Shown here piece by piece: positions 8,315 through 34,757 of a DNA stretch of 34,763 nt (positions are counted from its first letter, which is position 1; every line of letters begins with the position of its first letter). The notes beneath the pieces are model-generated. The model made no database searches. It was not told the DNA's origin and worked only from the letters and a program-made list of their open reading frames with translations. The stretch spans positions 9,717 through 44,479 of the forward strand of contig CAJOJJ010000004.1 of assembly GCA_905234925.1 (NCBI GenBank). The letters are read 5' to 3'. The stretch comes from an uncultured Endomicrobiia bacterium (GTDB taxonomy: Bacteria; Elusimicrobiota; Endomicrobiia; Endomicrobiales; Endomicrobiaceae). The translations under genes and the position numbers were made by a program.

Positions 8315-9200
8315 TTAAAATTTCCAACACTAACTCTTCAAAACTCATTCCGATATATTTTGCCGCATCCGGAAACAATGAAGTTTTCGTCATACCCGGC
8401 AATGTATTTAATTCCAAAACATATATTTTGTTATTTTTATCAACTATCATATCCGCTCTGCAGGTTCCTTTACAACGGAACTCTTCATATACCTTAAGTG
8501 CAATTTTTTGAATTTGCTTCAACACTTTTTCAGGAAGTCTTGCCGGGATAATATGTTTCGATTGTCCGACGGTATATTTTGATTTAAAATCGTAAAACTT
8601 ACCCTTAGGTACTATTTCTATAACGGGAAGAGGATTACCGTTTAAAACTCCTGCAGTAACTTCTACGCCTTTAATGTATTTTTCCACCAAAACTCTGTCT
8701 TCATATGAAAATGCCAGTTTAACGGCTTTTTCAAATTCCTTTTTATTTTTTACTATTGATATTCCTATCGCAGAACCTTGAGACGCAGGTTTTACGACAA
8801 CGGGGAAATCTATTTCTTTAAAAGGTTTATTTTTTTCTATAACCGTCCATTCGGCAGTAGGGATATCCGCATATTCAAATATTTTTTTTGAAACTATTTT
8901 ATCTATACTTGCGGCACTTGAAAATACTCCGCAGCCCGTGTAAGGTATGCCCATCACTTCCAACATTCCCTGAATAGTTCCGTCTTCACCCGGCGTTCCG
9001 TGCAGAGTGATATAAGCAACATCTATTTTTTCTTTCTTTAATTTTTCGGCAACGTTCTTATTAACATCTATCAATACAACTTTGAAACCGAGCTTTTTTA
9101 TTGCATCATAAACTGCCTTGCCCGACATTAAAGATATTTCTCTTTCCGATGATGTTCCGCCGCACAACACACCTATTTTTTTATTTTTTAAATTTATCAT
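8301..9200 (-). CDS. ddl: D-alanine--D-alanine ligase
   Basis: GVLCGGTSSEREISLMSG, HGTPGEDGTIQGMLE, LELNTLPGMT. Confidence 0.96.
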   Translation of the reverse strand: MINLKNKKIGVLCGGTSSEREISLMSGKAVYDAIKKLGFKVVLIDVNKNVAEKLKKEKIDVAYITLHGTPGEDGTIQGMLEVMGIPYTGCGVFSSAASIDKIVSKKIFEYADIPTAEWTVIEKNKPFKEIDFPVVVKPASQGSAIGISIVKNKKEFEKAVKLAFSYEDRVLVEKYIKGVEVTAGVLNGNPLPVIEIVPKGKFYDFKSKYTVGQSKHIIPARLPEKVLKQIQKIALKVYEEFRCKGTCRADMIVDKNNKIYVLELNTLPGMTKTSLFPDAAKYIGMSFEELVLEILKSCR

Positions 9201-10195
9201 TTTACTATCCGTATTTCAGTTTCAAGTTCTATATTATATTTTTCAAAAACTTTCTTTTTTACATACTCTATAAGTGCCAGCATATCTTTTGCTGTCCCTT
9301 TATTTTTATTAATGAAAAAATTTGCATGTTTAGATGATATTTCTATTTCACCGATGTTATAATTTTTCAGATTTAGGCTATCTATTAATCGTCCTGCGGA
9401 ATCGTTTTTAGGATTTTTAAATACGCACCCTGCATTTTTAACACCTGCAGGCTGAGTATTCTTTCGTTTTTCAAGTTCTTGTGAAATATTTATTAGAATA
9501 TCATTTTTATCAGCATTTTTCAACTTAAAAAAAGCTCTTGTTATTACACAATTTTCAAGTCCGCTTTTTCTATACTCAAAATTTATATCTTTTCTGTCTA
9601 AAATTTTCTTATTCCCGTCGAAATCTATAATTTCTATCTTTATCAAATTGTCGGATATAGAACATTCTTTCACACCTGCATTACCGAATATTGCTCCGCC
9701 AATTGTCCCGGGAATACCTGCAAGATGTTCAAAACCGCTTAAGCCCTGCTCTGCAGTCTGTTTTACAACCGCCGGCAAACTTGCCGCTGACGAAACAGAT
9801 ATTTTTTCTGTCGTCATTGCGAGCTCGTCAGAGCGTGGCAATCCGGCGTCTTTGCCGTTGCAAATCTTCCAATCCTCTAATCTTCCAATATTCTTAAAAT
9901 TGTTGTTCTGCGATAATTTTATTACTATCCCCTTAAAACCCTCATCGGGAAAAAGTATATTCGTCCCCCCGCCGAGAATAAAAAACTTAAATTTGTTTTC
10001 TTTTATAAACTTCAGCAAGAAAATTAACTTTTCTTCCGTGTCAACTTCAACAAAAAAAGAGGCATCCCCGCCGATACCAAGCGAAGTATGTTTTGATAAC
10101 GGTTCATTAATTTTATATTTGAAATTTCCGAACGATAGAAAATTTGCTATATCAGGTTTAATAGTTTTTCTCCCTGTTACCGAATATTTTTCTAT
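9197..10195 (-). CDS. murB: UDP-N-acetylenolpyruvoylglucosamine reductase; non-canonical start and in-frame repeat insertion
   Basis: GGGTNILFPDEGF, AGIPGTIGGAIFGNAG, and C-terminal CVFKNP...AGRLID. The listed ORF starts at TTG 10018, but the same frame stays open to 10204 and encodes ...KYKINEPLSKHTSLGIGGDASFFVEVDTEEKL, the conserved FAD-domain N-terminus, with no ATG/GTG/TTG. The start given (ATA at 10195) is a guess. Confidence 0.88.
   Translation of the reverse strand: MEKYSVTGRKTIKPDIANFLSFGNFKYKINEPLSKHTSLGIGGDASFFVEVDTEEKLIFLLKFIKENKFKFFILGGGTNILFPDEGFKGIVIKLSQNNNFKNIGRLEDWKICNGKDAGLPRSDELAMTTEKISVSSAASLPAVVKQTAEQGLSGFEHLAGIPGTIGGAIFGNAGVKECSISDNLIKIEIIDFDGNKKILDRKDINFEYRKSGLENCVITRAFFKLKNADKNDILINISQELEKRKNTQPAGVKNAGCVFKNPKNDSAGRLIDSLNLKNYNIGEIEISSKHANFFINKNKGTAKDMLALIEYVKKKVFEKYNIELETEIRIVK
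9812..9893. repeat. Intergenic-type repeat modules embedded in frame in murB
   Basis: GTCATTGCGAG..GCGTGGCAATCCGGCGTC plus CTTCCAATCCTCTAATCTTCCAA; both recur in non-coding DNA or gene edges (34631-34678; 13022-13070; 13708-13740). Confidence 0.8.
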
Positions 10196-32845: not shown

Positions 32846-33193
32846 TTATTTTTTATCAATATTTTTTATTTTATCTTTCAAATATTTTATTTCGATTTCA
32901 TGTCTTTTCAGTTTTTCCTCAAACAAATCCATTCTGGAAATAATATTTTTATCTTCATCTTTTTTTAATGAAGAAGAAAATTTGTTCTCTTCCAAAAAAT
33001 ATGAAATCGGTAAATCTAAAGCCTTTGCTATCTTTTCTATTGATTTTAATGTAGGAACTTTATCTCCTGTTACCCATCTGCTAACCATTGGTCCATCGAC
33101 GTTAATTTTTTTTGCCAAATCTTTTTGAGTAAGTCTTTTTTCAAACAAAGCTTTTCTTAATTGGTCTGCAAGAAAAGTTTTCGCAAATTTCAT
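32846..33193 (-). CDS. XRE-family HTH transcriptional regulator
   Basis: RLTQKDLAKKINVDGPMVSRWVTGDKVPTLKSIEKIAKALDLPISYFL. Confidence 0.92.
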   Translation of the reverse strand: MKFAKTFLADQLRKALFEKRLTQKDLAKKINVDGPMVSRWVTGDKVPTLKSIEKIAKALDLPISYFLEENKFSSSLKKDEDKNIISRMDLFEEKLKRHEIEIKYLKDKIKNIDKK

Positions 33194-33273: not shown

Positions 33274-33327
33274 TGTTTTAACGAACAAAATAATTGTCTT
33301 AAAAATATTATTAAAGATATAAATTTA

Positions 33328-33416
33328 AAGCCGGGCAAGTTAAAGTATACCAAAATTTGTTTACTTTAATTTGTAAAAAGATAAAAACTTTTCCGGAGTC
33401 ATTTATCTCTCGGCTT
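33328..33416 (+). ncRNA. Candidate three-way-junction leader of the pilin mRNA
   Basis: P1 AAGCCG/CGGCTT; P2 CAAGTTAAAGTA/TACTTTAATTTG; P3 GATAAA/TTTATC. Confidence 0.45.
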
Positions 33417-33455
33417 ATTATAGCAAATAAAAAATTATAAAGAAAGGAGAAAATT

Positions 33456-33893
33456 ATGAAAAGATTAAAAGGTTTTACTTTAGTAGAATTGGTAATAACA
33501 ATAGCTATTGTTATTATTCTGTCTGTAATTTCTGTACCTATTTACAGAGGGTATGTTGATAAGGCAAAGATGGCTGAAGTTTATGCCTTAGCAGGAACTA
33601 TTCTTTCAGCACAAAAAAATTATTATTCTGAATATGGATATTTCTATTTTCTTGGTCCTAATTACTATTGGACATCCAATAATATCGACTTAGGTATTGA
33701 TATAAGAGGAAACAAATATTTTACAAGTTTCTTTACTACTGCTCATAATTTAGATATGGCAAAGTATAAATTTTATTCTTACATTATGAAACCGACAGAA
33801 ATACAAGAACCGGGAAAAAGAGTTTTTGGATTTAATTATAACATAACAGAGGGAATACGTTTTGTTGATAGAGATGATACAGGAAATGAATAG
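33456..33893 (+). CDS. Type IV pilin-like protein
   Basis: MKRLKGFTLVELVITIAIVIILSVISVPIYRGYVDKAKMAEVYALAGTILSAQKNYYSEYG; AAAGGAG RBS. Confidence 0.92.
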   Translation: MKRLKGFTLVELVITIAIVIILSVISVPIYRGYVDKAKMAEVYALAGTILSAQKNYYSEYGYFYFLGPNYYWTSNNIDLGIDIRGNKYFTSFFTTAHNLDMAKYKFYSYIMKPTEIQEPGKRVFGFNYNITEGIRFVDRDDTGNE

Positions 33894-34088: not shown

Positions 34089-34757
34089 TTATAACCAAGA
34101 ACTATCTTTTTCTTGTTTATAAATAATTTTCCCACCCAAAGTAATATTATACTGCAACAAAAACATTGTTTTATTTGGAATCATCAATTCTTGCGGAATA
34201 GCCATATAAGAATGAAAATATTTTTTCAAATCATGCTCAGGAGTAGCAGGACCTGCTTGAAACCAAGTAAAATATTTATTTCCTCTGGCATCTATATTAA
34301 GTACCGTATTATTATCCGTCCATTCTCCACCTTCATAACGACCCAAAAAATTTCCATATTCAGAATAATAGGCTTTTTGTGCAGAAAGAATTGTTCCAAA
34401 CAAAGCATAAGCTTCCGATATTTTTGCTTTATCGACGTATCCCCTGTAGATTGGTACTGAGATTACTGATAAGATAATAACGATGGCAATTGTGATTACA
34501 AGTTCTACCAATGTGAAAGCGGCACGGCTAAAAGGTGTTTTATTAACATCAACAGAACAAACTGCAGATCTCTCGTCGCTTCGCTCACTCGAGATGACAG
34601 GAATGTCTATTTCGGGAATGACAGATGAACTACAACGACACCGGATTGCCACGCCGACTTCGTTGCCTCGCAATGACAACCTGTTTTGGTTGTTGTCGTT
34701 TGTTGTACATTGTACATTATACATTGTACATTTTTGTTTCCTTTCAAGGTTTTTCAT
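34089..34757 (-). CDS. Type IV pilin-like protein with ~70-residue repeat-derived insertion in the leader
   Basis: MKNLERKQ + repeat-encoded segment + SRAAFTLVELVITIAIVIILSVISVPIYRGYVDKAKISEAYALFGTILSAQKAYYSEYG. Confidence 0.8.
   Translation of the reverse strand: MKNLERKQKCTMYNVQCTTNDNNQNRLSLRGNEVGVAIRCRCSSSVIPEIDIPVISSERSDERSAVCSVDVNKTPFSRAAFTLVELVITIAIVIILSVISVPIYRGYVDKAKISEAYALFGTILSAQKAYYSEYGNFLGRYEGGEWTDNNTVLNIDARGNKYFTWFQAGPATPEHDLKKYFHSYMAIPQELMIPNKTMFLLQYNITLGGKIIYKQEKDSSWL
34530..34733. repeat. Cluster of dispersed repeat modules within the pilin leader
   Basis: TGTACATTGTACATTATACATTGTACA; GGATTGCCACGCCGACTTCGTTGCCTCGCAATGAC; CTCTCGTCGCTTCGCTCACTCGAGATGAC. Confidence 0.8.

Follow-up and report, generated by a model that had tools for sequence, protein, structure and literature searches.

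Repeat-rich leaders in an expanded type IV prepilin family of a rumen endomicrobial genome and their probable origin by in-frame insertion of palindromic elements

Described prepilin leaders are 6–26 residues long, and those of type IVb about 15–30 (PMC4471445). At one end of the window, by which we mean the whole stretch of 34,763 nucleotides analysed here, lies a prepilin gene whose leader of 80 residues is built from short repeats. How did such a leader arise, and is it translated at all? The source genome (G000) is a 1.37 Mb MAG of a rumen bacterium in 106 contigs. Close relatives of the pilin were found in the uncultured Endomicrobia MAG CAJOOL01 (G007, a second species), in Candidatus Ruminimicrobiellum caprinum (G004) and in Candidatus Ruminimicrobiellum ovillum, and on the strength of these pilin relatives the source genome is assigned to the genus Candidatus Ruminimicrobiellum (Endomicrobia, Elusimicrobiota). 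The pilin family is large: about 70 genes in G000 (71 matches), 69 in G007 and about 95 in G004, with 1–13 in other members of the genus. A search of the available literature returned nothing specific on pilin expansions in Elusimicrobia.

The gene runs on the minus strand from 34757 to 34089 as one frame of 222 codons, open throughout as the preliminary description had stated, and reads MKNLERKQKCTMYNVQCTTNDNNQNRLSLRGNEVGVAIRCRCSSSVIPEIDIPVISSERSDERSAVCSVDVNKTPFSRAA up to the cleavage site and FTLVELVITIAIV... beyond it. Cleavage is expected between 34518 and 34517, that is between A and F, where the context is A before FTLVELVITIAIVIILS or A before FTLVELVITIAIVIILSVISVPIYRGYVDKAK, followed by the pilin body. 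The product has the prepilin signature: Gly/Ala at −1, a hydrophobic stretch and Glu5. A Pfam search with this pilin alone gave no match at E 0.001; searched together with its neighbours it reached the N_methyl family at 21.2 bits, which is at the cut-off. A profile of the paralogues matched PilE/PilA among PDB chains with E about 5e-11. The AF2 model of the mature part has a long N-terminal helix plus a sheet, with pLDDT mostly >90, and the helix begins at the cleavage site; the leader, which had no alignment depth, is predicted to be disordered (pLDDT about 43–55). The best Foldseek match, PAK pilin, was weak (E 0.02). The genome encodes one bifunctional prepilin peptidase (A24_N + A24), which adjoins a secretion ATPase.

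The preliminary description had reported that repeat modules separate the start of the leader from FTLVELV. The modules are indeed there, but the end given for the leader, 34530, omitted its last four codons (SRAA), so that the 80-residue leader spans 34518–34757. All of the modules it named were recovered, and all lie on the minus strand. A TGTACA-type palindromic module (CTMYNVQCT) at 34704–34731 also occurs in other leaders and in intergenic sequence. It is followed at 34643–34677 by the M1 REP GTCATTGCGAGGCAACGAAGTCGGCGTGGCAATCC (SLRGNEVGVAI), in which the named CATTGCGAGG..GGCAATCC is the GTCATTGCGAG..GGCAATCC element. An M3-type half REP, GTCATTCCCGAAAT (VIPEI), lies at 34609–34622; its GTCATTCCCG has 48 sites in the part of the genome's own sequence that was examined. 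The M2 REP GTCATCTCGAGTGAGCGAAGCGACGAGAGATCT (VISSERSDERSA) at 34566–34598 contains the named CTCGAGTGAGCGAAGCGACGAGAG, takes the form GTCATCTCGAG..CGAGAGATCT and has 22 sites in the own sequence examined, 6 of them in pilin ORFs. The leader ends with VNKTPFSRAA (34518–34547), which is common to many paralogues. From FTLVELV to the stop codon (34089–34517), the mature pilin is free of repeats. The other two pilins of the window have the short leaders described earlier, MNILKRSRG (9 residues) and MKRLKG (6 residues); the latter gene, read from the sequence at 33456–33893 on the plus strand, serves as a short-leader comparison. No RNA family of Rfam was matched in the window.

The leaders of 65 pilins of the own genome, 53 of G007 and 35 of G004 were read upstream from FTLVELV. 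In the own genome they range from 4 to 112 residues, the ordinary, uninserted ones having 5–15. Repeat tags lie in the leaders of 24 of the 65 own genes (55 tags in 5,392 bp of leader sequence) and of 20 of the 53 in G007, and in none of the 35 scanned in G004. The mature parts held no tag in either repeat-bearing genome (0 in 27,153 bp from the 65 own paralogues; 0 in 21,342 bp in G007). The repeat modules in the window leader are not there by chance, since GTCATTGCGAG occurs 78 times in the own genome and 0 times in its reversed control, and since tags recur in these 24 paralogue leaders. The long leaders are chains of recurring peptides: RRRIATPTLSARNDG (M1 read backwards), SLRADEVGVAIQCRC (M1 read forwards), VIPEI, VISSERSDERSAV, NGNIDSVSERYRSHGMT and CPTKTHAQHLGHD. 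Inside an M1 copy of L090, and likewise of L023, a second module is nested and the frame is still kept. M1 numbers 78 copies in G000, 34 in G007 and 5 in G004, and leader expansion follows repeat load rather than the number of pilins, although this is a correlation across three genomes. The roughly 95 pilins of G004, often in tandem pairs (e.g. L177–L196), have no repeat leaders, which indicates that the repeats are not needed for pilin expansion.

Several features qualify how this concentration is to be read. Among the M1 sites examined, 17 of 77 are in pilin ORFs and 50 of 77 lie outside ORFs of at least 80 aa. The 200 bp upstream of pilin starts are also rich in repeats (22 tags, 13 genes), and part of the bias is therefore a bias toward the 5' end and not tolerance of the leader alone. 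Part of the pilin 5' region is itself a genome repeat: AAATACCGAAAACTTATCAGCCTATCAGC..., a separate element with 41 matches in G000 (e.g. C8:24596, C53:1322), precedes many pilins and also occurs elsewhere, frequently where contigs end. Many leaders share a common origin, so the 18 complete long ones do not stand for 18 independent events; module type and junction distinguish at least six.

Only 6 bases separate the start of the window gene from the contig end, and its Shine-Dalgarno sequence therefore falls outside the window; the copy on contig C42, 89% identical, has AAAAGGAGAAATGCTATG at that position. About 10 other long leaders also lie at contig ends, as would be expected if repeats had been misjoined to pilins during assembly. 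However, 18 complete long leaders lie within contigs, with start and upstream sequence, the same pattern appears in the independent MAG of another species (CAJOOL01), and misjoining would not preserve the frame. On the grounds of the complete internal cases and the second species we reject an assembly artefact, which we regard as having next to no chance of being the explanation.

A more serious question is whether the repeats are translated. REPs at the annotated N-termini of ORFs are usually read as untranslated, and a caution to this effect has been given (PMC3733652); internal ATG or TTG codons do occur in some leaders here, and the repeats could in that case be mere 5' untranslated sequence ahead of a start near FTLVELV. 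Such a start was named in the preliminary description as grounds for rejecting its claim, but no in-frame start preceded by a Shine-Dalgarno sequence was found between the repeats and FTLVELV. Internal in-frame starts lack such a sequence everywhere but in L145 of G007, whose second start precedes the repeats of that gene. For the window gene, the in-frame ATG, GTG or TTG nearest to FTLVELV is 45 codons upstream. The upstream ATG, in contrast, has AGGAG at 5–8 nt, and the layout is the same in short- and long-leader genes, as with AAAAGGAGAAATGCTATG before MNILKRSRG and before leaders of 80 residues. A Shine-Dalgarno sequence with ATG was present in 48 of 53 copies away from contig edges. Each of the 18 complete long leaders has an open frame in register with the pilin, and stops close 35 of their 36 alternative frames, which argues that the open frame is the one kept; untranslated sequence would not retain it. 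The search for FTLVELV was independent of the leader frame, and of the non-edge genes it recovered only two are broken: L004- (C67:902-1192) has a frameshift inside M1, and L005 (C2:19015-19431) lacks a start codon and lies behind a repeat leader. Frame retention and the absent Shine-Dalgarno sequence speak against an internal start, and we give this reading a very small chance. The whole leader is probably translated and would then be removed by the single PilD-type peptidase.

Comparison between species indicates the direction of change. Short leaders are the norm in G004; the ordinary leaders of relatives without repeats are what insertion predicts, whereas repeat-free long leaders there would have spoken against the claim. 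Uninserted counterparts exist as short-leader orthologues. L079 of the own genome (short leader) and L157 of G007 (repeat leader) are reciprocal best matches with 72% identity in the variable body, far above the second match, and L077 (own, short leader) and L161 (G007, repeat leader) form a second such pair at 61%. Together with the short leaders of G004, these pairs indicate that repeats were added to short leaders. Two further candidates for uninserted alleles in synteny were set aside: at L071/L223, next to dxs, and at L028/L213, next to a glycosyltransferase-like gene, the neighbours match, but the pilins are not best matches (rank 15/52 and 48/52, respectively). Paralogues, the second species and orthologues that differ in having the insert thus all support the earlier proposal that the same repeat vocabulary invaded the leader in frame.

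However, simple gene-by-gene insertion is insufficient for all leaders, since nearly identical leaders are found on dissimilar mature genes. Leaders that share 0.85–0.98 of their DNA sequence carry mature genes no more alike than random pairs, and in these pairs identity falls at codon +1. In G007, third-position identity drops from 0.83 for long leaders to 0.50 over the first 33 codons of the mature part. Whole-gene duplication together with the leader is rejected because the mature identity of such pairs equals background; the leaders must have spread or arisen separately from the mature genes. Either many insertions of young repeats occurred at nearly the same place in old genes, or paralogues received copies of one another's 5' parts up to a boundary near +1; both probably contribute. 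Judged from these sequences, leader copying among paralogues is likely to be at work as well. A mobiliser of RAYT type was also considered and rejected: the one Y1 transposase, IS200-like and 147 aa long, showed no link to the repeats.

A functional extension of copying is that the leader repeats serve recombination, so that 5' cassettes (upstream region, start and leader) are exchanged among pilins as far as the mature N-terminus, aiding pilin diversification or switching. High leader identity with mature parts at background and the contrast at third positions in G007 are in keeping with it, as are the mosaic appearance of mature N-terminal haplotypes and the contig breaks at leaders, which are expected of multi-copy sequence. 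Nevertheless, the same repeats stand at dozens of non-pilin sites, clean recombination is unlikely between leaders whose modules come in different orders, almost every copy has a start of its own, which silent cassettes lack, and young repeats repeatedly inserted into old genes would yield the same pattern of identity. We therefore consider a role in exchange rather unlikely. In its stronger form, repeat leaders would be a working part of pilin diversification, and 5' cassettes with start and leader would move among about 70 mature pilin genes, bounded by the cleavage site and re-paired by recombination through the repeats; this is quite doubtful. The silent pilS cassettes of Neisseria, which accompany pilE, lack a start, and that system too has many pilin copies with a constant N-terminus. 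Here, nearly all copies carry a Shine-Dalgarno sequence, ATG and leader, and L005 is the only startless one, which does not fit silent cassettes of the Neisseria kind.

The long leaders evolve near-neutrally, with little constraint on their amino acids. Differences between them are spread evenly over codon positions (28/26/28 and 344/330/422), with pN/pS 0.58–0.77, whereas the repeat-free short leaders of G007 show 10/12/56 and pN/pS 0.11; these ratios are rough because the alignments contain gaps and shifted modules. At the mature N-terminus, variation is almost solely at third positions. The Ala at −1, to which the preliminary description drew attention, was read correctly, but it is neither due to the repeats nor an anomaly. 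Of 64 own pilins 18 have it, as do 10 of the 35 from G004, among them some with short repeat-free leaders such as MKKENVNLKIKA, and type 4 prepilins as a rule carry Gly or Ala at −1 (PMC10191384).

It is also conceivable that repeat hairpins near the start regulate the translation of individual pilins. Two leader mRNAs fold better than their shuffles (z −2.4 and −1.95), but elsewhere in the same leader a stretch does less well than its shuffles (z +1.6), and the type and position of modules vary freely between leaders. Such a role is improbable.

The explanation that we regard as likely is that, in two species or more, REPs were inserted in frame between start codon and cleavage site, much as Rickettsia palindromic elements are, and were tolerated because the peptidase discards the leader. 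Short palindromic repeats of the REP family would have entered this segment many times; insertions that kept the frame would have survived, and several may later have become nested or joined, turning the leader into a chain of modules. The leader would be cytoplasmic and then cut off by the prepilin peptidase, so that its sequence would hardly matter: it would need only to be open, hydrophilic and to end with Gly or Ala before F-T-L-V-E. Repeats that landed in the mature part would have been purged. The way in which the repeats insert is what we infer here.

The sequence resembles known systems in several respects. Rickettsia palindromic elements (RPE-1, RPE-4, RPE-6) are likewise small multi-copy palindromes, in frame, in genes that stay functional, and the present repeats share their marks: they are multi-copy and mostly intergenic, with in-frame genic copies and uninserted homologues, including short-leader paralogues. 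However, RPEs lie in unrelated genes struck once or twice, whereas here 23% of the main repeat's copies are in one family, always within the discarded part and in many combinations. Strings of 43–82 REP-coded residues are on record from Rickettsia conorii and Thauera (PMC3733652). The repeats are also similar to the CGTC-tagged REPs of Di Nocera and others (2013, PMC3733652) in their [CT]GTC tag, in palindromes of the ATTCCCGA, ATCCTGAA and ATCCCGTA type, in the loop CTTGA and tail CCA of some, and in that no dedicated transposase was seen. A TGTC or CGTC tag marks 119 of 130 distinct GTC-anchored hairpins and 38 in the reversed control, in a scan that itself required a stem of 8–9 bp opening with A-T, T-A. 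They differ in that many loops are longer than 4–5 (only 28 of 130 hairpins have loops of 4–5) and many tails are CTA (CTA 43, CTC 15, CCA 13); the M1 stem is mostly interrupted. As for the class III signal peptides of type IV prepilins, the hydrophilic leader, Gly/Ala −1, F(+1)TLVE(+5), the hydrophobic helix and the one bifunctional PilD-type peptidase are shared, but the leaders here reach 112 residues.

In-frame RPE/REP insertion is thus a known phenomenon; its concentration on the cut-off part of one gene family, in several combinations and in two species, is new. The 2013 survey of CGTC-REPs names five phyla, among which Elusimicrobiota does not figure (PMC3733652), and the present case extends coding REPs to a phylum outside that survey and links them with a pilin family that is hyper-expanded. 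It shows which part of a protein tolerates REP insertions and amounts to a natural mutagenesis, with dozens of replicates, of how far a prepilin leader can change while the gene is kept. It also offers a direct test of the leader length acceptable to the prepilin peptidase and to SRP/Sec. For annotation, long repeat-derived N-termini in these genomes are probably real, and the contig breaks of such MAGs come from them.

M1 was also seen in genes outside the pilin family. A MurB-like frame (window 9197–10018, minus strand) carries the GTCATTGCGAG repeat (M1, 9813–9823) within its FAD-binding part, apparently in frame; it matches its family from profile position 50 onward and is probably the other in-frame case mentioned in the preliminary description. 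An RPE-like insertion is also present in a U32 peptidase/TrhP-like protein of 683 aa (L105:839-2887, plus strand), with an in-frame M1 near residue 393. Next to the pilin at 33456, a 5' element gccgggc...ctcggcttattatagcaaa (33327–33428), which had no Rfam match, and a divergent gene for a small Xre-type regulator (32846–33193) precede the start. Of 48 own pilins, 16 have the ctcggct-ttata half of this element upstream. Several pilins are preceded by a divergent regulator gene, and there is perhaps one regulator per pilin.
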